Shown piece after piece: positions 1 through 46,386 of a DNA stretch of 64,000 nucleotides (position 1 is the stretch's first letter; each line of letters starts with the position of its first letter). Under the pieces are notes generated by a model. It saw only the letters and a list, made by a program, of their open reading frames with translations. It made no database searches and was not told where the DNA came from. The DNA comes from an uncultured Bacteroidota bacterium (GTDB lineage: Bacteria > Bacteroidota > Bacteroidia > 2-12-FULL-35-15). The position numbers and the translations under genes are program-made. The stretch covers positions 1-64,000 of the forward strand of contig CAINDA010000067.1 of assembly GCA_903847205.1 (NCBI GenBank), given 5' to 3'.

Positions 1-1868
1 CCGTTTCCTTTCAAGTAGCCTAAATCATCCAATAGCATATTGCCCAAAGCAACATGAAATTTTTCAAAGGGCTGATTGGTGCCTAAGCCAACATATTTGT
101 TATAACCGAAAAAAGCAATAGGCGAATTGCCCGAGTAGCCGTTAAATGGATTTTCAACAGCAACACCCCCTGTTCCTCCAGGAGTGTAAATACTTACTCC
201 TGAAGTATTGCCAGAATTAGTATTGTCACCAATTATAGTTTGTCTGTTGAAATTACCAATCATATTAAATTCGGTGCTGTTGTTACTGGGCGTTCCGTTT
301 CCTTTCATATAACCATTATCATCCAATAGCATATTGCCAAATGCAACATGCAATTTTTCAAAAGGCAAGGTTGTGCCAATACCTATAAAAGCGCCATTAT
401 TAAAAATATTACTGCTGTTTGTTACCCATGAAGAGCCGTTCCAGTAGGTGGTGTTTCCGGCAGCAGAGCCAGCGGCTATTACTCCTGAAGCACCGGTGCT
501 TCCAGTTGTTCCAATGTTTCCGGCTGCGCCTGTGGCACCAGTATTTCCGTTAGTTCCATTATTTCCTGTGGCACCTGTAGAACCTTTTATTCCATTGGTT
601 CCTGCAGCACCTGTGGCGCCGGTATTTCCAATATTTCCGTTAGTTCCTGCAGCACCCGTTGAGCCGGTAGTTCCATTGTTTCCATTTGTTCCTGCGGCCC
701 CTGTAGAACCTGTATTGCCATTAACTCCATTATTACCTGTTGAACCGGTAGCGCCTTTTATTCCATTAGTTCCTGCGGCACCAGTAGCACCGGTATTTCC
801 AATAGCTCCGTTGGTTCCGGCAGCCCCCGTTGAGCCGGTAGTTCCAATGCTTCCATTAGTTCCTGCGGCACCAGTAGCACCGGTATTTCCAATAGCTCCG
901 TTGGTTCCGGCAGCACCCGTTGATCCGGTAGTTCCATTGCTTCCATTTGTTCCTGCTGCGCCTGTAGCACCTGTATTTCCAATAGTTCCGTTAGTTCCAG
1001 CCGCACCTGTTGATCCTGTAGTTCCATTGCTTCCATTAGTTCCTGCAGCACCGGTATTTCCAGTAGCTCCGTTGGTTCCTGCCGTACCTGTTGATCCTGT
1101 AGTTCCATTGTTTCCGTTGGTTCCTGCCGTACCTGTTGATCCTGTAGTTCCATTATTTCCGTTAGTTCCAGCAACACCAGTTGATCCTGTAGTTCCATTA
1201 GCTCCGTTGGTTCCAGCAGCACCGGTTGCACCCGTGTTTCCATTTGTCCCATTGTTTCCGTTAGCTCCTGCAGCGCCTGTGTTTCCATTGCTTCCATTAG
1301 TACCGGCTGCACCCGTTGAGCCGGTAATTCCATTACTTCCGTTAGTGCCTGCAGCACCTGTCGCACCAATAGTTCCATTTGCTCCGGTATTACCAGTAAG
1401 TCCCATTGTGCCGTTACTGCCTGTTGTACCCGTTGCTCCGGTATTTCCCCGGTTGCCTGATGTTGTTGCTGAATTTTGAGCGAACAAAGCATAAGGTACG
1501 CTCATCAATTGCTGTGTTCCCATAACCAGATAAGTGCTGCCTCCGGTAACATCCATACTTATTTCGATAAAGTAAGGCCCCGTTGCCCAATTAATTGTGC
1601 TGAATGCCCCTATAACAGGAGTGCCTCTTCCAACTACCAGGTTCAACAATCCAAGGTTGTTTGATGTTACAGTATGTGTTTCGGAATAAACAATTGTTCC
1701 GGAGGAAGTTCCCTGACGCAGGTTTATTTGCAGCCCTATTGCCTGATTGGTTATAACAGTACCTGTTAAATTGCGTGCAACAGCCTGGTAATTGAAGCCC
1801 TGCGGTGCCTGCGCGAAAGAAATTAAGAATGTTGCGTTGAGGATTAAAAGAGAAATTATTTTTTTCAT
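1..1868 (-). CDS. Collagen-like surface protein, C-terminus cut off by the window
   Basis: The gene starts at an ATG at 1868 and stays open to the left edge, so its C-terminus lies outside. The protein opens with a signal peptide (MKKIISLLILNA...SFAQ) and an N-terminal domain of about 115 residues beginning [13 protein letters not shown], shared almost word for word with the genes ending at 2496 and 7135. A Gly-X-Y stretch follows (about nt 445-1450) rich in G-N-T, G-A-T and G-S-N triplets, with Asn and Thr instead of proline. After it come at least two copies of a module containing FEKLHVAxGNMLLDD. The gene lies 26 bp after a T9SS-sorted small protein, as in the two paralogous pairs to the right. 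I infer a secreted stalk-like or adhesive surface protein. The opposite strand shows a long Pro/Val-rich open frame here, which is a by-product of the repeat codons. Confidence 0.85.
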   Translation of the reverse strand, partial: MKKIISLLILNATFLISFAQAPQGFNYQAVARNLTGTVITNQAIGLQINLRQGTSSGTIVYSETHTVTSNNLGLLNLVVGRGTPVIGAFSTINWATGPYFIEISMDVTGGSTYLVMGTQQLMSVPYALFAQNSATTSGNRGNTGATGTTGSNGTMGLTGNTGANGTIGATGAAGTNGSNGITGSTGAAGTNGSNGNTGAAGANGNNGTNGNTGATGAAGTNGANGTTGSTGVAGTNGNNGTTGSTGTAGTNGNNGTTGSTGTAGTNGATGNTGAAGTNGSNGTTGSTGAAGTNGTIGNTGATGAAGTNGSNGTTGSTGAAGTNGAIGNTGATGAAGTNGSIGTTGSTGAAGTNGAIGNTGATGAAGTNGIKGATGSTGNNGVNGNTGSTGAAGTNGNNGTTGSTGAAGTNGNIGNTGATGAAGTNGIKGSTGATGNNGTNGNTGATGAAGNIGTTGSTGASGVIAAGSAAGNTTYWNGSSWVTNSSNIFNNGAFIGIGTTLPFEKLHVAFGNMLLDDNGYMKGNGTPSNNSTEFNMIGNFNRQTIIGDNTNSGNTSGVSIYTPGGTGGVAVENPFNGYSGNSPIAFFGYNKYVGLGTNQPFEKFHVALGNMLLDDLGYLKGN

Positions 1869-1894: not shown

Positions 1895-2380
1895 TTAGTT
1901 CGATTTAATTATTCGGAAGGATTTGTTTTGTGCAGAATTGTTTTTTATTAAAAGCAGGTATGTTCCTGAATTATATTCGGTCATATCTAGCTGCAGATGC
2001 GTGCTTGAATTTATCTGCCGTGATTTCAGTAATTTCCATTCCACAGTATATAAATCAACAACCAGAACTTGATTAAGTACATTTTGAATTTGCAATTGAA
2101 GAAAATCAACTGTCGGGTTTGGAAAAATTGTTATTGAATAATCGGCAGGCACATCATCAATTGACGAGGTTAATAAATTGGGCTGATGAAATCCCTGTGT
2201 TAAAAGATTGTTTGAATTACTTAGTGTTGATGTTACTGGTTCTCCCAAAGTCCAGTCTAATTGGGCTGAAGAGTTAGTAAAGCTGGTACCGGAAGTTGAT
2301 ATTATCTGAGGCGATAAGGACTGCGCTCCCGAAAATTTTATTAAAAAAAAGAGGAATAAAAAAAGCGGATTTTTTTTCAT
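1895..2380 (-). CDS. Small secreted protein with T9SS type A sorting domain (copy 1)
   Basis: I chose the ATG at 2380 because a typical Sec signal peptide follows (MKKNPLFLFLFFLIKFSGAQ); an upstream in-frame alternative start would put eight odd residues in front. After the signal comes a conserved short domain ([14 protein letters not shown]...[10 protein letters not shown]...[12 protein letters not shown]). Then comes a C-terminal domain of about 75 residues with FPNPTVDFLQLQIQ, LYTVE.KLL, NSGTYLL and a final FRIIKSN. That order (FPNP, a G-K-LL-like turn, GxY, basic end) is characteristic of T9SS type A sorting signals, which direct proteins across the outer membrane for release or surface attachment. 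It precedes the collagen-like gene by 26 bp and is probably cotranscribed with it. Its own function is unknown. Two close paralogues lie at 5195-5680 and 9024-9509. Confidence 0.85.
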   Translation of the reverse strand: MKKNPLFLFLFFLIKFSGAQSLSPQIISTSGTSFTNSSAQLDWTLGEPVTSTLSNSNNLLTQGFHQPNLLTSSIDDVPADYSITIFPNPTVDFLQLQIQNVLNQVLVVDLYTVEWKLLKSRQINSSTHLQLDMTEYNSGTYLLLIKNNSAQNKSFRIIKSN

Positions 2381-2406
2381 TTGATTTACTAAAAATTTGA
2401 GCATAC

Positions 2407-2495: not shown

Positions 2496-5168
2496 CTATT
2501 TTTCTTTCTCAGCGCTTACATTGCGCTTTTGAATTTCATCCAATTCATTTTCTATTTTAATGAATTTGTTTTTAAAGTCTGAGTTTTCTTTTTTAGAATG
2601 CTCCAGCTCGGCTTTAAAATTTGCATTTTCTGTTTTCAAATTTTCAATCATTTTTTGCTGCGCCTGCATTGCTGAGATGCTGAGTGTTGAAAGTGCTTCA
2701 TAATCTACTACTCTGAAATCGGTCACTTGGCGTCCATATACAAATACCGGTCCTTCGTCAGCAAGGTTTACTTTGAAACTATTTGCATCGGCTTCTATTA
2801 CTTCTGCCAGTTCAGTGCGTTTATCAAAAATCAGTTTTACTTTTTCGCCGGCTTTCAGATTGTTGGCGATTGTAATTTTTCCGTTTTTTATTTCCGCTGT
2901 TTTGAAAATATCCGGCACTTCGTCTTTTATTCTGCTTACTGCATTAGGGTATACCGTTTCCAATTCCTGTGCTATTAATTTTTTGTAAACTTTATTGCCT
3001 TTTCCAATGGTGTCAATGAATTGATAATCTTTAATGCGGATGTTCATAAGTGTATTCAAATCCTTTGCATTGTTTGAAACATCAATCACTTTTTTTATCC
3101 GTGCATCGGAGTAAGCATTAAACTCTAATGCCGCAATTCGCTGTGAAGCATAAATCGAATAATTAGCAGTACCGGATGTAGCACCTGTTGTGCCTGTAGG
3201 GCTTAAGTAGCCATAAGTAAGGGTATTGCTTTGTGAGCCGTTTACTTCCACAAGTGCTTTAGAAGGTGAAGTTGTACCAAAACCGACAAGCCCTCCATCA
3301 GTTACAAGTGCATAGTTACCATTTGCCCCTCCAGAAGCTTTAAAATAGCCTGCATAGTTAAAGCTTGCCGACCCAGTATTTGCGATTGAGCAATACACTC
3401 CCCATGTAGTATGAAATGAGTTTGAGTTAGCGCCTGAACTAGATACGTTAAATATTGTTGACGGAGTGAATCCTGCACCCGCTGTTGAAGCAGAGGTTAA
3501 TGAAAAAGCGTTTCCGGCTGTAAGACCATCAAATGAAAAAGAAGTTGTATTTGCTCCATGAGCAAGAGTTAGATTGGATGTTGGAGAAGCAATCAGATCC
3601 CATCTCATAAGCCCAGAAGGATTTGTCCAGACAGGCGGTGCACCTGCTCCCCCTGAAGTAAGCACATAACCATTAATACCGGCTGCATTATTAGGCATCA
3701 ATGCCCCGCTGAATTTGATATTTCCAGTAACATCTAAAATTTGAGAAGGTGTGCTTGTTCCAAAGCCTGTATTGCCATTTTTCAAAACTGTCATTGCATT
3801 AGAGGCTGCTCCGCTGCTTGTTCCATTACCAATAACAAACAAGCGATCAGCCGCATTCCATGAATTAGTACTTAAAGGTGTATATACAGTATTGTATTGC
3901 CCGATAACGGTTTCGGCGAAAGAGGGGGCATTTGTGGTAAATCCCATCGCAATTGAAACATCTCCGCTGGCAATAGTATAGTCTCCCATTGCAGTGGAAA
4001 TATGCCCGCTTGCAGTAGCGCTATTTCCTAACGCAGTTGAAGTGCCGCCGCTGGCGATTGTACTGTTTCCCATAGCAGTTGAAAAAGATGCACTAGCGTT
4101 AGTATTTGATCCCATTGCAGTAGAATAAGATCCGCTGGCAATAGTAAATATTCCCATTGCTGTAGAAGAAGGTCCGCTGGCAGTGGTGCCATTTCCTAAC
4201 GCAGTTGAATTGGATGCGTTAGCGGTGGAGTTGTATCCCATCGAAGTAGAAAAGTAACCAGTATTAGCATTGTCCCATTGTGTTCCATTTACGAATCCGG
4301 CTCTGAATGAGCCTTTACCCGGATAAAACATCATGCGGCTGCCAGCTCCAAAATCAGGCACTGTGGAAGATGCATTATAAGTTCCTGTAACTAAAACACC
4401 ATTGGTTGTGCTGCTTCCAAGTTCAACATGAAGCAGCGCTGCTACATTTGGTGTGGAAGTATTGATGCCTATATTGCCACCTGCATTATAAATGTTGCTG
4501 CTGTTTGCAACCCATTGCGTACCATCCCAATAAATAGTGTTTCCGATTGCAGCACCGGCAGTTATTAATCCTGCAGCTCCAGTTGAGCCGGTAGTTCCAA
4601 TGCTTCCTGTATTTCCGGTCAGCCCCGTTGCGCCTACAGCGCCTGTTGTTCCTGTTATACCCGCGGCTCCATTACTGCCAGTTGTTCCGGTTGAACCATT
4701 ATTACCTGTTGCACCCATTGCTCCATTAGTACCCGTTGCACCAGTAACACCCTGCGTTCCGGCCGACCCTGAATTTTGAGCATACAAAGCATAAGGCACA
4801 CTCATTAATTGCTGTGTACCCATTACTACATAAGATGTACCGCCTGTAACATCCATACTTATTTCAATAAAGTAGGGTCCGCCTGCCCAGTTAATACTGT
4901 TAAATGTTCCGGTTACTGGGGTCCCGCTGCCAATAACCATGTTTAATAATCCTAAATTATTTGAAGTGGTAGCATGTGTTTCGGTATAAACAATAGTTCC
5001 CCCGGCAGTCCCCTGGTGAAGGCTTATTTTTAAACCTACGGCCTGATTGATTAAAGCAGTACCGGATAAATTGCGTGCAACGGCTTGGTAATTGAAGCCC
5101 TGCGGTGCCTGTGCGAAAGAAATTAAAAATGCAGCGTTGAGGATTAAAAGAGTAATTATTTTTTTCAT
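2496..5168 (-). CDS. Collagen-like / YadA-head protein with C-terminal S74 self-cleaving chaperone
   Basis: 890 residues, modular. Residues 1-19 form a signal peptide, and residues 20-130 the [13 protein letters not shown] domain shared with the neighbouring paralogues. Residues ~135-205 are Gly-X-Y triplets ([13 protein letters not shown]...). Residues ~300-420 contain repeated (S/N)TAMG and TALGNxTxASG units, the signature of YadA-type trimeric adhesin heads. Near residue ~690 is YSDARIKK, the start of an intramolecular chaperone of the endosialidase / peptidase S74 family, ending with [12 protein letters not shown]. The last ~60 residues are a charged coiled coil ([24 protein letters not shown]...). 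S74 domains trimerise beta-rich fibres and then cut themselves off just before the Ser of the SD motif. All three modules favour trimers, so a homotrimeric fibre is a strong inference. No T9SS tail is present, so the export route is unclear. Confidence 0.88.
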
Positions 5169-5194: not shown

Positions 5195-5680
5195 TTAATT
5201 CGATTTAATTATTTGAAAGGATTTGCTCTTTGAAGCATTGTTTTTTATTGAAAGCAGGTAGGTTCCTGAATTATATGCTGTCATATCTATTTGCAAATGT
5301 GTGCTGGAGTTTATTTGCTGCGATTTCAGCAATTTACCTTCTATGGTATAGAGATCTATAATAAGGACTTCATTTAATAAATTTTGAATTTGCAAAGTCA
5401 CAAAATCAACGGCGGGATTGGGAAAAAGAGTTACAGAATAATCGGCTGGTACATCATTAATTGCAGTAGTTAATAAATTGGGCTGATGAAATCCCTGGCT
5501 TAATAAATTATTTGAATTACTTAATGCAGCAGTTACTGGTTCTCCTATAGTCCAGTCTAACTGAGATGAAGAGTTAGTAAAACTTGTGCCGGAAGTGGAT
5601 ATTATCAGCGGGGAGAGGGATTGTGCTATCGAAAACTTTACTAAAAAAATTAAGGAGGTAAAAAGTAAATTTTTTTTCAT
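5195..5680 (-). CDS. Small secreted protein with T9SS type A sorting domain (copy 2)
   Basis: 161 residues: signal peptide ([20 protein letters not shown]), then [18 protein letters not shown]...[10 protein letters not shown]...FHQPNLL, then a T9SS type A tail starting at [14 protein letters not shown] and ending FQIIKSN. It is a close paralogue of the proteins at 1895-2380 and 9024-9509. It lies 41 bp after the thioredoxin-like gene and 26 bp before the collagen-like gene. Unlike the other two copies it has no TAnnTTTG promoter box just upstream, so it may be read through from the 7098 gene. It is exported and surface-sorted by inference; its partner and activity are unknown. Confidence 0.85.
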
Positions 5681-5721: not shown

Positions 5722-7098
5722 TTAATTTGCCTTTAATACTTTCTCAATTTCTGATTCCAGATTCTTAACATCCAGAATGCGCTGAATAATAATTCCTTTT
5801 TTATCTATTAATGCCATTGATGGAGTTGCCTTTATATTGTAACTTTCAAGTGCAGGATTGGATTGACCAACATTCACATTAGTCCAGCCCAAGTTATTAT
5901 CAGATATAAATTTTTTCCATTGTTCACTGTTCGCATCCAGTGATGCGGCATAAATGTTAAAGCCTGCTTGATGGTACTTTTCGTATGTTTTTTTTATTTC
6001 AGGGGTGGCTTCAATACAGTGTGAGCAATCGGAAGACCAGAAAATCGCTAATGTAAGTTTGCTGTTTTTTACAACATCACTCAGTTTTTTCATCGATCCT
6101 TTATTATCCGAAGCAATTATTTCTGGAGCAATGCTTCCAGCTTTTATTTTTGAAGCCGATTTTAGAGCAGCAACAATTGATGGTAATTGCTCTTCTGCCC
6201 AGGGGCGTGTATCTAACCAGTCTCCCATTGTTTCGAGATACTCTTCTCTGTTAGTTTGAGAAAAAACATTGTAGAGAGCCAAACCTAATTTTTTGTTCGC
6301 TTCTTCATTACCCATTGCTTTCATAAACATATCATTTATAAAAGCATATCGGCCCTGCCTGCTTGTGTCAGCTATATCATTTAAATATCCAATGAATTTT
6401 ACAGCTATATCAGAAGTATAAAACAAACGTGTGTCAGAAAAATTTATTCCATCAAAATAATGTTTTTCCATTTGCTCTACAGGCGATTTCTGCTTATTCA
6501 GCATTGGGCATAATGCCATTGGAGCAATCACCTGAGCGGTGAATGTTTTGGGGTAGTCATTAATAATCTGCTGTATATGCATATTATAATCTGCGGTTAA
6601 ATCGGCCCAGTATTTTGCGCAGATGGTTTTATCAGCAATACAGGATGCTCTAAATCCTTTCAATGTATCACGAAGGGTTGCCATGTTGTTTCTAAGAATT
6701 TCATGAGCTACATTTTCAAAAGAATTGGTAATGTACATTTCAGGAGGCTTTCCGTTTGCCAGCACTATTTTAAAACCAGGATTAGGTTCATTTTTAGAGA
6801 ATAAAATACTTTTTGAAAAACCTCCGTAAAGAACTTCATAAAACTCAGTTTCTGCGACGGGAATCTTAAACTGAAAACTATTATCTGGTTTTATTTTCGT
6901 TTCATATTTCTTAAATATTGAATTATATGGATTTAAATTTATTGTTTTAGATGGCAGGGAAACATTATTATTAACTATAAAACCTGTAAATGTTATAGTA
7001 TCGGTTTTCTCTGCAAATAATGAAAATTGAAGACAAAAAAACAGAACAAAAAACACACTAAAAAAATTATATTTAATAGTTTGTAACTTGTTTTCCAT
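5722..7098 (-). CDS. TlpA-like thioredoxin-fold protein (secreted)
   Basis: 458 residues with an N-terminal hydrophobic signal (FFSVFFVLFFCLQFSLFA). The first ~140 residues form a beta-rich domain typical of Bacteroidota thioredoxin-fold proteins with DUF4369-type fronts. A helical middle follows, then a C-terminal TlpA/AhpC-TSA fold. The active site CSHC lies at about residue 356 (LAIFWSSDCSHCIEATPEI), and the cis-proline loop reads IKATPSMALID. Such proteins reduce or exchange disulfides outside the cytoplasm. The neighbours matter: the protein ending at 7135 has about seven Cys-rich repeats that would need disulfide chemistry, so a role in folding it is a reasonable but untested inference. 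It probably heads a short transcription unit with the 5195-5680 and 2496-5168 genes. Confidence 0.85.
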   Translation of the reverse strand: MENKLQTIKYNFFSVFFVLFFCLQFSLFAEKTDTITFTGFIVNNNVSLPSKTINLNPYNSIFKKYETKIKPDNSFQFKIPVAETEFYEVLYGGFSKSILFSKNEPNPGFKIVLANGKPPEMYITNSFENVAHEILRNNMATLRDTLKGFRASCIADKTICAKYWADLTADYNMHIQQIINDYPKTFTAQVIAPMALCPMLNKQKSPVEQMEKHYFDGINFSDTRLFYTSDIAVKFIGYLNDIADTSRQGRYAFINDMFMKAMGNEEANKKLGLALYNVFSQTNREEYLETMGDWLDTRPWAEEQLPSIVAALKSASKIKAGSIAPEIIASDNKGSMKKLSDVVKNSKLTLAIFWSSDCSHCIEATPEIKKTYEKYHQAGFNIYAASLDANSEQWKKFISDNNLGWTNVNVGQSNPALESYNIKATPSMALIDKKGIIIQRILDVKNLESEIEKVLKAN

Positions 7099-7134: not shown

Positions 7135-9000
7135 TTAATTACAAACGCCGCCTATGCAGCTATGTCCTCCAGGACAGGTGTTACCGCATGCACCGCAGCT
7201 ATTTGTATTATTGGTAATATTAACTTCACACCCATTAACAGGATTGTTATCACAATCTGCAAATCCTGGATTGCAGGAAGCAATTACACACAAACCAGAT
7301 GAACAGCCAATTGAAGCATTAGGCTTAGATGCACATACATTTCCGCATGCACCGCAGTTATTTGTATTATTGGTAACATTAACTTCGCATCCATCCGCAT
7401 AATTCATATTACAATCTGCAAATCCTGCGCTGCAAGAAGCAATTATGCATAAACCAGATGAACAGCCAATTGAAGCATTAGGCTTAGATGGACATACATT
7501 TCCGCAGGCACCGCAGTTATTTGTATTATTGGTAACATTAACTTCGCATCCATCCGCAGCATTGTTATTACAATCTGCAAATCCAGTATTACAGGTAGTA
7601 ATTACACACAAACCGGATGAACAGCCGACTGTGGCATTTGATTGTGAACACGTATTTCCGCAGGCACCGCAGTTATTTAAATCACTGGCAATATTAACTT
7701 CACATCCATCAGCAGAACTCATATTACAATCTGCAAACCCTGCACTGCAGGAGGCAATTACACAAAAGCCAGATGAACAGCCTATTGCAGCATTAGGTTT
7801 AGTGCTGCATATATTTCCGCAGGCGCCGCAGTTATTTAAATCATTAGTAATATTAACTTCGCATCCATCGGCATAATTCATATTACAATCTGCAAATCCT
7901 GGGCCGCAGGAAGCAATTACACACAAACCAGATGAACAGCCTATTGCTGCATTAGGCTTAGAAGCACATACATTTCCGCAGGCACCGCAGTTATTTGTAT
8001 TATTGATAAGATTAATTTCGCATCCATCCGCAGAGATGTTATTACAATCTGCAAATCCGGTAGTACAGGAAGCAATTACACAAAAACCGGATGAACAGCC
8101 GGCTGCGGCATTTGGCAGCGAACACACATGCCCGCAGCTGCCGCAATTATTAATATCAGTGCTGAGATTTACACAATTGCCCGAACAATTTGTTTGCCCT
8201 GGCGCGCAGTAGTTTCCCCAAGCCGGAACACCGCTGATAACCTTTAGAATTTGATTTTCTGCTCCGATAGGGATTAAAGTCCATGCTGTACCATTCCAGT
8301 AATAAAGGTCACCAGTATTTGTACCTGCTTGAAAAGTTCCAGTTGCACCTGTAGCGCCATTGATTCCAATAGTTCCCGTTGCTCCTGTTGAACCGTTGAT
8401 ACCGTCTATGCCAGAGGAACCTGTAGCTCCATTGATTCCAGTTGTTCCAGTCGCTCCAGTTGCGCCCGTTGAACCGTTATTGCCGTTTGATCCAGAGGTT
8501 CCGGTTGCACCAATAAGCCCTGTCGCTCCGCTATTACCTGTTGCACCTATTGTACCAGCAGCACCAGTTGCTCCGGTATTTCCCTGTGTGCCGGGTGTTC
8601 CAGAATTCTGCGCATACAAAGCATAAGGCACACTCATTAATTGCTGTGTACCCATTAATGCATAAGCGGTACCTCCTGTAATATCCATACTTATTTCAAT
8701 AAAGTAAGGTCCGTTTGCCCAGTTAATTGTATTAAAAGTTCCTGTAACAGGCGTGCCGCTGCCAACAACAAGATTCAATAATCCTAAGTTATTTGAAGTT
8801 ACAGTATGTGTTTCGGTATAAACAATAGTTCCTGCAGAACTTCCCTGGCGCAGACTTATCTTCATCCCTATTGATTGATTGATTAAAGCCGTGCCGGATA
8901 AATTGCGGGCAACCGCTTGGTAATTGAAGCCCTGCGGTGCTTGTGCGAAAGAAATTAAGAATGCCGCGTTGAGAATTAAAAAAGCAATTATTTTTTTCAT
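7135..9000 (-). CDS. Collagen-like protein with C-terminal Cys-rich repeats
   Basis: Start taken at the ATG at 9000, where a normal signal peptide begins ([20 protein letters not shown]); the longer form starting at 9018 adds six residues in front. Order of parts: signal peptide, the shared [13 protein letters not shown] domain, about 90 residues of Gly-X-Y triplets (GATG, GSNG, GING), a short linker ([15 protein letters not shown]), then seven CGxCGxxC units. Six of these are joined by GCSSGxCxIxSCxxGFADCxxxxxDGCE. Each repeat is about 47-48 residues. Similar cysteine repeats are familiar from secreted proteins of predatory and gliding bacteria. All cysteines appear in conserved positions, so intrarepeat disulfides are likely. 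No T9SS tail is seen; the T9SS-sorted partner at 9024-9509 lies 23 bp upstream. Function unknown; surface or adhesive role inferred. Confidence 0.87.
7136..8150 (-). repeat. Tandem ~141-144 bp repeats encoding Cys-rich modules
   Basis: Six complete and one partial in-frame copies, each encoding [10 protein letters not shown]...GCSSG.C.I.SC..GFADC......GCE. Copies differ by scattered substitutions and by a one-residue length change (CSQSN in place of CASKPN). The DNA is similar enough that unequal recombination could change copy number. Confidence 0.85.
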
Positions 9001-9023
9001 GATGATAGATTTAATCATTCGTA

Positions 9024-9509
9024 TTAATTCGATTTAATTATTCGAAAGGATTTTATTTTTGCAGAACTGTTTTTTATTGAAAGCAGGTATGTTCCAGAAC
9101 TGTATGCTGTCATATCTATCTGCAAATGTGTGCTGGAGTTTATCTGCTGTGATTTCAGTAATTTCCCTTCTATTGTATAAAGATCAATAAGAAGGCTTTC
9201 ATTTAAAGCATTTTGAATTTGCAAATTCACAAAATCAATGGCAGGGTTTGGAAAAATTGTCACAGAATAATCAGCCGGCACATCATCAATTGCAGTTGTT
9301 AATAAATTGGGCTGCTGAAATCCCTGTGTTAAAATATTATTTGAATTAGTTAATGCAGCTGTTACGGGTTCTCCTAATGTCCAGTCTAATTGAGCTGAAG
9401 AGCCGATAAAGCTGGTGCCGGAAGTGGATATTATCTGCGGGGAGAGGGATTGTGCAACCGAAAAATTTATTGAAAAACAAACGGATAAAAAAAGTAAAAT
9501 TTTTTTCAT
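9024..9509 (-). CDS. Small secreted protein with T9SS type A sorting domain (copy 3)
   Basis: Start set at the ATG at 9509, which gives [20 protein letters not shown], a clean signal peptide. The open frame extends 30 codons further, but that part is not signal-like and runs across the promoter. The conserved [14 protein letters not shown]...[10 protein letters not shown]...FQQPNLL domain is followed by a T9SS type A tail from [14 protein letters not shown] to FRIIKSN. It is the first gene of the collagen-like cluster and lies 23 bp before the Cys-rich collagen-like gene. About 75% or more identical by eye to the other two copies, so these pairs arose by local duplication. Confidence 0.85.
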
Positions 9510-9533
9510 TTGATTTTTTTTGATTGGAAGTAC

Positions 9534-9562
9534 CAAATGTATAAAGATTTGAAGGATTACAA
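9534..9562 (-). promoter_or_regulatory. Bacteroidota-type promoter heading the collagen-like cluster
   Basis: On the minus strand TACATTTG (9541-9534) matches TAnnTTTG, and TTG (9562-9560) stands 18 bases upstream. The ATG at 9509 follows after about 24 bases. Spacing and position mirror those at 2407-2436 in front of copy 1. Confidence 0.55.
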
Positions 9563-10123
9563 TTTTTTTATAGAAGAAAATTAACATTATATTAATCACT
9601 ATTTTTTAGAAAAACAACAACTCGGTAAAGGAATAATGCAATTTTGTGAATTTTAAGATTTTTTTCGACTGAAACGGATTTGTTTGGCCGAAACAAAACA
9701 TATTTGACTGAAAAAGGTATTTGTAGAATTTGACTGGAAAATCTGCTTTATCACAAAATAGATTTTAATACCATTTTTTGACTTTCACACTCATTTGTAT
9801 TGCCTCAAAAAGGTTTGTTTTATCAGAAAATAGCGGGAAATGATGCAGGCTGGATATCTTTTGGATTTATTATAAAAGGAATAAAATAACAGCAGTTTGG
9901 GTATTCAGATTAGAGGTTATATACAACAGTAAAGTATAAACTCTCTTCAGAACTTTGCTTAATGAGAGTTTTTTGTTTGTAAGTATTGTTTTATAAAAAA
10001 TTTGAAAGTAGCTCAATTAATAATCTAATGATTTTATTTTTTATATCATTGCATTAACAAGGAAACATTGATGCTTGTTTTGCATATAAAAAAACAGCAG
10101 CAAAGTTTTAGAAAATAGACAGC
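9563..10123. other. Intergenic region with degenerate periodic motif and a weak hairpin
   Basis: No convincing gene. Between about 9666 and 9740 the motif (G)ACTGAAA / GGCCGAAA / GACTGGAAA recurs at spacings of 19-26 bases, a decayed tandem pattern. At 9938-9971 AAACTCTC pairs with GAGAGTTT across an 18-base loop and is followed by T residues, a possible weak plus-strand terminator. The rest is AT-rich leader for the gene at 10124. Confidence 0.4.

Positions 10124-31483: not shown

Positions 31484-46386
<14,903 letters not shown>

Follow-up and report, generated by a model that had tools for sequence, protein, structure and literature searches.

A modular S74-tipped fibre of an uncultured Bacteroidota bacterium and an adjacent gene encoding a type IX secretion sorting signal

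The gene at positions 2496-5168 of a 64,000-nucleotide stretch of DNA from an uncultured Bacteroidota bacterium (GenBank assembly GCA_903847205.1, contig CAINDA010000067.1, positions 1 to 64,000; here called the window) encodes what is probably a modular surface fibre, a homotrimer with a beta-rich N-terminal domain (N-domain), a collagen-like stalk, YadA-head repeats and a C-terminal S74 intramolecular chaperone domain. Directly upstream lies a partner gene (5195-5680), whose product has a domain of about 50 aa with the pattern ...WTxGE...LTQGFxQP, here named QGF, followed by a type A sorting domain of the type IX secretion system (T9SS). An earlier sequence-only reading of this DNA overlooked the partner gene, as well as the known S74 fibres of this layout in Bdellovibrio, the mosaic adhesive trimer (MAT) fibres. 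Here it is proposed, as a rather probable reading, that the fibre forms a homotrimer and cleaves itself through the S74 domain, and that the QGF domain of the upstream partner binds the N-domain for T9SS export and/or surface fixing.

The fibre/partner pair occurs three times in the window, always with the partner upstream on the same strand and with gaps of 26, 26 and 5 bases between the two genes (coordinates of the open reading frames, ORFs), the partner genes encoding 161-191 aa as listed, each with a by-eye signal peptide, QGF and a type A sorting domain. The sorting domain of the partner at 5195-5680 is matched by TIGR04183 with 42.1 bits (cut-off 23), and Pfam has nothing in this protein outside it. 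The N-domain is common to the three fibre genes of the window, the other two being 80 and 86% identical to the first over residues 1-132, and it is present in 15 genes of the same genome. Among the matches listed, this genome has eight full-length QGF genes, of which six immediately precede an N-domain fibre gene, one immediately follows such a gene (contig C56) and one is a gene apart from it (contig C44); under random placement, six of eight lying within 1 kb upstream of a fibre gene has P ~2e-16. A 530-aa frame in contig C35, also matched in the QGF search, is not beside a fibre gene and was rejected; it seems to be some other protein that bears a sorting domain. The translocon protein SprA is encoded in this genome.

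The pair is also present across Bacteroidota. The best QGF locus was taken in 30 of the 41 genomes searched (this genome included), and the N-domain is beside it in 25 of the 30, at L122 about 0.8 kb away; a broader N-domain model gives 26 of 30, adding a cut-off N-domain in L130. The remaining best loci either stop at a contig end (L109, L119) or have no N-domain (L114, L121). A cultured strain, Flavobacterium defluvii DSM 17963, also possesses a pair (L100), with a divergent QGF copy. Another 40 lower-scoring full-length QGF loci, a non-random set taken from the matches listed with near-full coverage, have the fibre gene directly downstream in 30 cases (L170 among them solely by the original QGF match), directly upstream in three, presumably upstream in one (L142, with the N-domain off the contig) and one gene away in four, while two near contig ends have no fibre seen. 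On the fibre side, the sample comprises 79 loci from genomes that were picked up through the N-domain alone. There, a gene with a sorting signal lies directly upstream of 49 of the 95 fibre genes with enough flank, compared with 7 of 304 other genes (Fisher P 1e-28), the controls being genes of at least 150 aa from the same loci, excluding those that bear the signal themselves. A separate count of 103 fibre frames gives 52 with an upstream sorting-signal gene, 49 of these with QGF.

The sorting signal itself is on the partner and not on the fibre. No T9SS sorting domain was found in the fibre at 2496-5168 by a scan with Pfam and NCBIfam-type profiles, nor in any of 112 distinct complete fibre C-ends (last 200 aa, fewer in six short proteins; fibres below 250 aa and duplicates are left out of this set), and a check with our own hidden Markov model (HMM) found a sorting domain in none of 171 N-domain frames. 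The possibility that partnerless fibres have a sorting domain of their own was rejected on these two counts. The tips of the 112 fibres include S74 (20), Collagen (19), Lcl_C (19), FISUMP (5) and BclA_C (4). The partners, in turn, have a type A sorting domain in 114 of 118 cases and a type B domain in three; this set consists of 117 frames of 120-270 aa, kept from the 129 QGF frames found, plus the window's own, near-duplicates and eight frames above 270 aa having been dropped. By our own HMM, 5 of 121 mid-size QGF frames are without a type A end, and L125, L141 and L142 among them look like type B, which was confirmed for L141. The partner in contig C56, in the genome of the window, bears a type B signal, and its row of genes also includes a PorP/SprF gene (261.6 bits, above the cut-off) and a PorE-like OmpA gene (316.8 bits, below the PorE cut-off of 600). 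Genome G002 repeats this arrangement: SprF-like, PorE-like and fibre genes stand in the same order, with a type B partner after them, SprF and PorE being assigned by eye.

Some further genes were observed at these loci. The type B QGF genes L022, L141 and L142 precede a long frame that looks TamB-like by eye. A gene resembling an outer-membrane beta-barrel precedes some fibre genes, with or without a QGF gene (L024:6781-7431, L025:7403-8062, L151:2344-2994 and L020:3371-4330), and Pfam OMP_b-brl matches three of these four. Beside or near fibres in L071, L080, L091, L092 and L094 are QGF proteins of about 300 aa with, by eye, a dockerin-like end instead of the type A signal. In contig C64, an S74 protein (L015:3306-6314) appears by eye to continue past the S74 domain into a T9SS type A sorting domain; self-cleavage would separate this fibre from its sorting signal.

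The two proteins also diverge together. When distances are compared over 97 pairs, r is 0.725 between N-domain and QGF, 0.631 between N-domain and sorting domain, and 0.614 between QGF and sorting domain, which are on one chain. The excess of the N-domain/QGF correlation over the N-domain/sorting-domain correlation is 0.093 (bootstrap 0.037-0.152), and the N-domain/QGF value was reached by none of 2000 permutations. This correlated divergence is what QGF and the N-domain would show if they shared an interface, common ancestry accounting for part of it.

In the proposed mechanism, the fibre would enter the periplasm through its Sec signal peptide, and the C-terminal S74 domain would keep three chains joined during the folding of the collagen-like, YadA-head and beta regions; it would then cut the chain before Ser687 and depart. 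The N-domain would tether the fibre to the cell, with the QGF domain of the partner binding it and the T9SS (SprA translocon) handling the sorting domain of the partner, so that the fibre would either pass the translocon with its partner or be merely anchored by it. For partnerless fibres, the first gene of an array may act in trans, or they may manage without. The modules, the conserved dyad, the fold match of the S74 domain, the recurrence of the pair, a sorting signal confined to the partner and the joint divergence of QGF and N-domain are observed, whereas we infer the signal peptide, the trimer and its cleavage, the direct binding of the partner, the dependence on the T9SS and adhesion. 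A narrower version, put forward tentatively, would be a two-protein T9SS export, in which a signal-less trimeric fibre is carried or fixed by a QGF mini-protein, QGF and N-domain being cognate and co-evolving, and the type A or type B signal could be swapped together with the matching shuttle genes, leaving the fibre unchanged.

Several observations weigh against a QGF partner that binds and serves the fibre. In the genome of the window, no QGF gene adjoins 7 of the 15 fibre genes; in the count of 103 fibre frames, 28 belong to fibre arrays and another 23 show neither an array nor an upstream sorting-signal gene. The QGF queries contained the sorting domain, which biases the matches toward partners having one. 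The loci found through the fibre alone are free of this bias, and there 50 of the 52 mid-size QGF frames (120-270 aa) terminate in a type A domain by our own HMM; in the same loci 8 of 60 QGF frames exceed 270 aa, 7 of these without a type A signal, and several long QGF proteins end in another domain. Additionally, shared ancestry by itself can yield correlated distances. The MAT fibres bear on the same point. Bdellovibrio displays them at its surface, according to the available text of PMC10769870. Bdellovibrio is not known to have a T9SS, nor these fibres a T9SS partner, so the N-domain need not depend on this system.

Those fibres would suit an arrangement that we consider unlikely, namely that the fibre is exported otherwise and that the QGF domain, trimmed by PorU to about 60 residues and fixed to lipopolysaccharide (LPS), is a mere surface anchor for the N-domain. 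Cleavage by PorU and attachment to anionic LPS are common among T9SS substrates, as described in the part of PMC10202324 at hand, the mature partner would be tiny, and fibres without a neighbouring partner exist; however, no other outer-membrane export route was seen in the fibre sequence or beside the fibre in the window, and SprA is present in all 34 N-domain genomes of a 148-genome sample (P 1e-4 by simple counting). The latter co-occurrence is weak because 117 of the 148 genomes have SprA and the listed negatives, 20 of the 31, nearly all belong to one family (19 to f31). Somewhat more doubtful still is that fibre and partner are co-regulated operon neighbours that never touch, their linkage stemming from shared expression and inheritance. 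Tandem cassettes and fibre arrays are indeed common, and 46 of the 95 fibre genes are without a sorting-signal gene directly upstream, which also counts against our own proposal, but mere co-regulation accords poorly with a QGF domain that follows the N-domain of the fibre more closely than the sorting domain of its own chain, with the partner-then-fibre order in most loci seen, and with the absence of the signal from all the fibre C-ends examined.

The fibre at 2496-5168 starts with what is, judged by eye, probably a Sec signal peptide. Its stalk is matched by Pfam Collagen (PF01391; 34.8 bits, cut-off 27.2, E 1.4e-8, best stretch 137-191), the Gly-X-Y run being unbroken from residue 134 to 202 with 17 Thr and no Pro, and YadA_head is matched over five stretches above the Pfam cut-off (57.9 bits, E 1.2e-15), with ST[AS][ML]G at residues 307, 321, 335, 349, 363, 377 and 391, seven copies with a spacing of 14 residues. 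Both repeats are far beyond chance. These results bear out the GATG triplets (23 consecutive Gly-X-Y triplets) and the STAMG head repeats described in the sequence-only reading, which had also noted YSDARIKK, found here as Tyr686-Lys693 at the start of the Pfam Peptidase_S74 match. The coiled coil that it placed after this motif corresponds to a long modelled helix (residues 823-889), although about 130 residues of the S74 fold intervene. Collagen, YadA-head and S74 modules form trimers in other proteins, and its idea of a three-stranded, self-cleaving fibre is plausible on this ground and from an S74 end whose Ser/Lys dyad is intact and whose fold comes nearest to that of the MyRF ICA domain. 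The fibre has no YadA C-terminal membrane anchor, as Pfam searched to E 0.1 gives YadA_head, Collagen and Peptidase_S74 only.

The C-terminal domain is a true S74 chaperone. Peptidase_S74 (PF13884) matches residues 687-744 with 28.8 bits (cut-off 22, E 1.5e-6), a weak score, as is to be expected of a subtype that carries an insertion. Similarly to this fibre, nine relatives (L185-L193) carry an insertion, about 45 residues long, that closes with Phe-Val-Tyr/Phe-Gly and is preceded by Lys-Lys-Val/Leu-Ile-Ala-Gln in eight of the nine and in the fibre itself. Matches to the S74 half were found in 11 of the 119 genomes searched, this one included, and 10 of the 11 S74 places outside this genome show an SDxxxK-type motif, the partial match at L195 (query 93-214) stopping short of it. 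The genome of the window has nine S74 domains above the Pfam cut-off. A profile of a 31-row S74 alignment matches the MyRF ICA (E 1.3e-22), a long tail fibre (7.4e-19), a T5-type fibre (7.3e-11) and gp12 (2.9e-8). With the S74 half as a single sequence, phmmer against the PDB gave no S74 match; this is a matter of sensitivity, as for the other blank single-sequence searches, because the alignment-based searches found relatives.

An AlphaFold2 model of residues 670-890 (pLDDT 78.7, pTM 0.49) has a chaperone fold and then a C-terminal helix, and its best structural match is the MyRF ICA (Foldseek E 1.5e-4; VIA-align Z 8.2 over 121 residues). Below it, the VIA-align rows consist largely of unrelated beta barrels, which align to the insertion in the S74 domain. 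Two points count against the assignment by structure: the model is middling, as its pTM indicates, and the endosialidase 3GW6, which follows with Foldseek E 0.004, is not above unrelated rows in VIA-align (Z 6.3).

The dyad of the fibre is Ser687/Lys692 within S-D-A-R-I-K. The corresponding catalytic dyads are S587/K592 in MyRF and S911/K916 in endoNF, and alanine at either residue abolishes MyRF cleavage, as given in the available text of PMC8326128. S-D-x-R-x-K is present in all 45 subtype domains above 60 bits (10 bacterial and 35 viral, the latter from 34 loci; rows below 60 bits were excluded from this count). Ser, Asp and Lys are also invariant in the 31 rows of the S74 alignment, which is not counted as independent because 30 of these rows came through a motif filter. 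From these comparisons, the domain is probably active and self-cleavage before Ser687 is likely. A domain that still acts as a chaperone and trimeriser and has lost the ability to cut is improbable: the weak Pfam score and the Lys-Leu that replaces the commonest Gly-Phe before Ile-Ala-Gln would agree with such a loss, but most members of the subtype have Lys-Lys ahead of that stretch (9 of 10 bacterial rows, 34 of 35 viral ones), and Ser and Lys are invariant in the subtype. The strict Phe-Val-Tyr/Phe-Gly pattern is found in 10 of 10 bacterial and 15 of 35 viral rows.

The same S74 subtype is present at 34 viral-contig loci with 37-48% identity (alignment scan of viral contigs). A single-sequence search of annotated phage records gave no relative of the S74 half. 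In a tree of 28 viral, 10 bacterial and 21 other rows, the bacterial and viral copies of the subtype interleave; the bacterial rows need four label changes, at least three of them forced by well supported branches, in a tree with several long branches and two viral rows (L197, L228) that may be misassigned bacterial contigs. Viruses and Bacteroidota have thus probably exchanged the S74 domain more than once. The earlier suggestion that the protein was borrowed from phage fibres is supported as regards exchange but not as regards its direction. A tail fibre of a cryptic prophage, which the viral occurrence of the subtype might suggest, is very improbable for 2496-5168: the start is signal-peptide-like, the neighbours are secreted, NADH dehydrogenase genes lie at about 15-29 kb of the window (by eye), and no phage-like gene was noticed on reading the listed ORFs of the window, no phage-profile search having been made. 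The N-domain has no match in phage records and only three loci in IMG/VR; the prophage reading was rejected on the gene neighbourhood and this empty phage-record search. The QGF/fibre pair was also observed on two IMG/VR contigs classed as viral (L182 and L183), which may be host flanks or mobile elements.

The features of the window are given in Table 1. The cysteine-rich modules at the end of the third fibre match NF041328 with 134.7 bits (cut-off 100), and a thioredoxin-like gene (by eye) lies between two cassettes on the minus strand at 5722-7098. Elsewhere in the window, a plus-strand frame of 4715 aa with a TTG start (32239-46386) is mostly Gly-X-Y (Pfam Collagen 1623.8 bits) and has 873 GST triplets, with triplet runs of up to 133. 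In other contigs, a paired S74 fibre gene appears to be broken into three frames, by decay or assembly error (L020:13128-18651, contig C34), and an S74 frame ends shortly past the motif, adjoined by a possible transposase ORF (by eye; L017:4076-5404, contig C45).

Table 1. Coordinates of the fibre gene, its modules and the neighbouring fibre and partner genes in the window
Feature	Positions	Strand	Remarks
Fibre gene	2496..5168	minus	single ORF, 890 aa, ATG start
Fibre N-domain, beta-rich, residues 20-131	4776..5111	minus	distant relative of Bdellovibrio MAT N-domain
Collagen-like stalk, residues 134-202, 23 Gly-X-Y triplets	4563..4769	minus	
YadA-head repeats, residues ~307-409, 14-residue period	3942..4250	minus	
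S74 (intramolecular chaperone) domain, residues 687-822, ~45-residue insertion; Pfam stretch 687-744	2703..3110	minus	
Motif S687-D-A-R-I-K692; predicted cleavage Tyr686/Ser687	3093..3110	minus	dyad by homology to MyRF and endoNF
C-terminal long helix, residues 823-889	2502..2702	minus	AlphaFold2 model
Partner of the 2496-5168 fibre, 161 aa	5195..5680	minus	by-eye signal peptide, QGF ~20-72, T9SS type A sorting domain 85-159
Second fibre gene, runs off window	3..1868	minus	same N-domain, long collagen-like stalk
Partner of second fibre	1895..2404	minus	QGF and T9SS type A sorting domain
Third fibre gene	7135..9018	minus	same N-domain, collagen-like stalk, cysteine-rich MXAN_6577-like repeats
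Partner of third fibre	9024..9599	minus	QGF and T9SS type A sorting domain

The fibre has the layout of the Bdellovibrio MAT fibres, with a beta-rich domain of about 130 aa after a by-eye signal peptide, a fibre middle and an S74 tip. The NCBIfam model of the MAT N-domain (NF053851) matches residues 12-86 with 38.7 bits (cut-off 60, E 8.5e-10); membership in the MAT family was rejected on this score, and in a phylum sample of 99 genomes the cut-off is reached in none, with 16 matching at 1e-5. By sequence, the fibre therefore resembles a MAT fibre as a distant relative and is not a member by the curated test. The N-domain model is a confident beta domain (pLDDT 88.9) with no clear PDB match (best Foldseek E 0.004, best Z 6.9). 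The MAT report, in the text available (PMC10769870), describes 21 proteins of this layout, 13 of them ending in S74 with SDxxxK, and cleavage of Bd3182 at S782, the S74 serine; in the same text, a surface element that binds the MAT N-domain must exist and is not known.

The MAT fibres and S74 spikes are a known kind of protein, and the fibre described here extends this kind to a second large phylum. What is unexpected is the QGF partner. How proteins that lack a sorting domain can depend on the T9SS is a question left open in the accessible text of PMC9936825, and the partner provides a concrete answer that can be tested; it also suggests where to seek the surface element that binds the MAT N-domain (PMC10769870, in the part consulted). 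The pair additionally gives a handle on many Bacteroidota fibres with tips including S74, Lcl_C, FISUMP and collagen. In the literature searched, with most subscription papers outside its reach, neither the QGF/fibre pair nor any link between S74 fibres and the T9SS was found described.

Among known systems, the MAT fibres of Bdellovibrio bacteriovorus (for example Bd3182) share the signal peptide, the beta-rich N-domain of about 130 aa, the long trimeric middle and the variable tip, as far as the text of PMC10769870 was available, whereas here the N-domain is only distantly related, the stalk is partly collagen-like and YadA-like, and a T9SS partner gene is present. The phage S74 fibres and spikes (endosialidase NF, the T5 L-shaped fibre and GA-1 gp12) and the MyRF ICA share the homologous C-terminal chaperone with its Ser/Lys dyad; unlike these, the fibre has a signal-peptide-like start and belongs to the subtype with the insertion and Lys-Lys-Leu-Ile-Ala-Gln. 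YadA-type trimeric autotransporters share the YadA-head repeats, but the fibre has no YadA membrane anchor by Pfam, so its export must go otherwise. Type B T9SS adhesins sit in operons with PorP/SprF and PorE, according to the portion of PMC12618676 available, and the C56 partner shares with them the type B signal and the operon parts; those adhesins bear their own signal, whereas here signal and fibre are on two proteins. Finally, in Flavobacterium columnare, proteins without a sorting domain, mainly peptidases, appear to need the T9SS by a mechanism left open in the available text of PMC9936825. The fibre is like them in the absent sorting domain and, as proposed here, in an apparent need for the T9SS, and differs from these peptidases in being a fibre with a recurring signal-bearing gene as its proposed partner.

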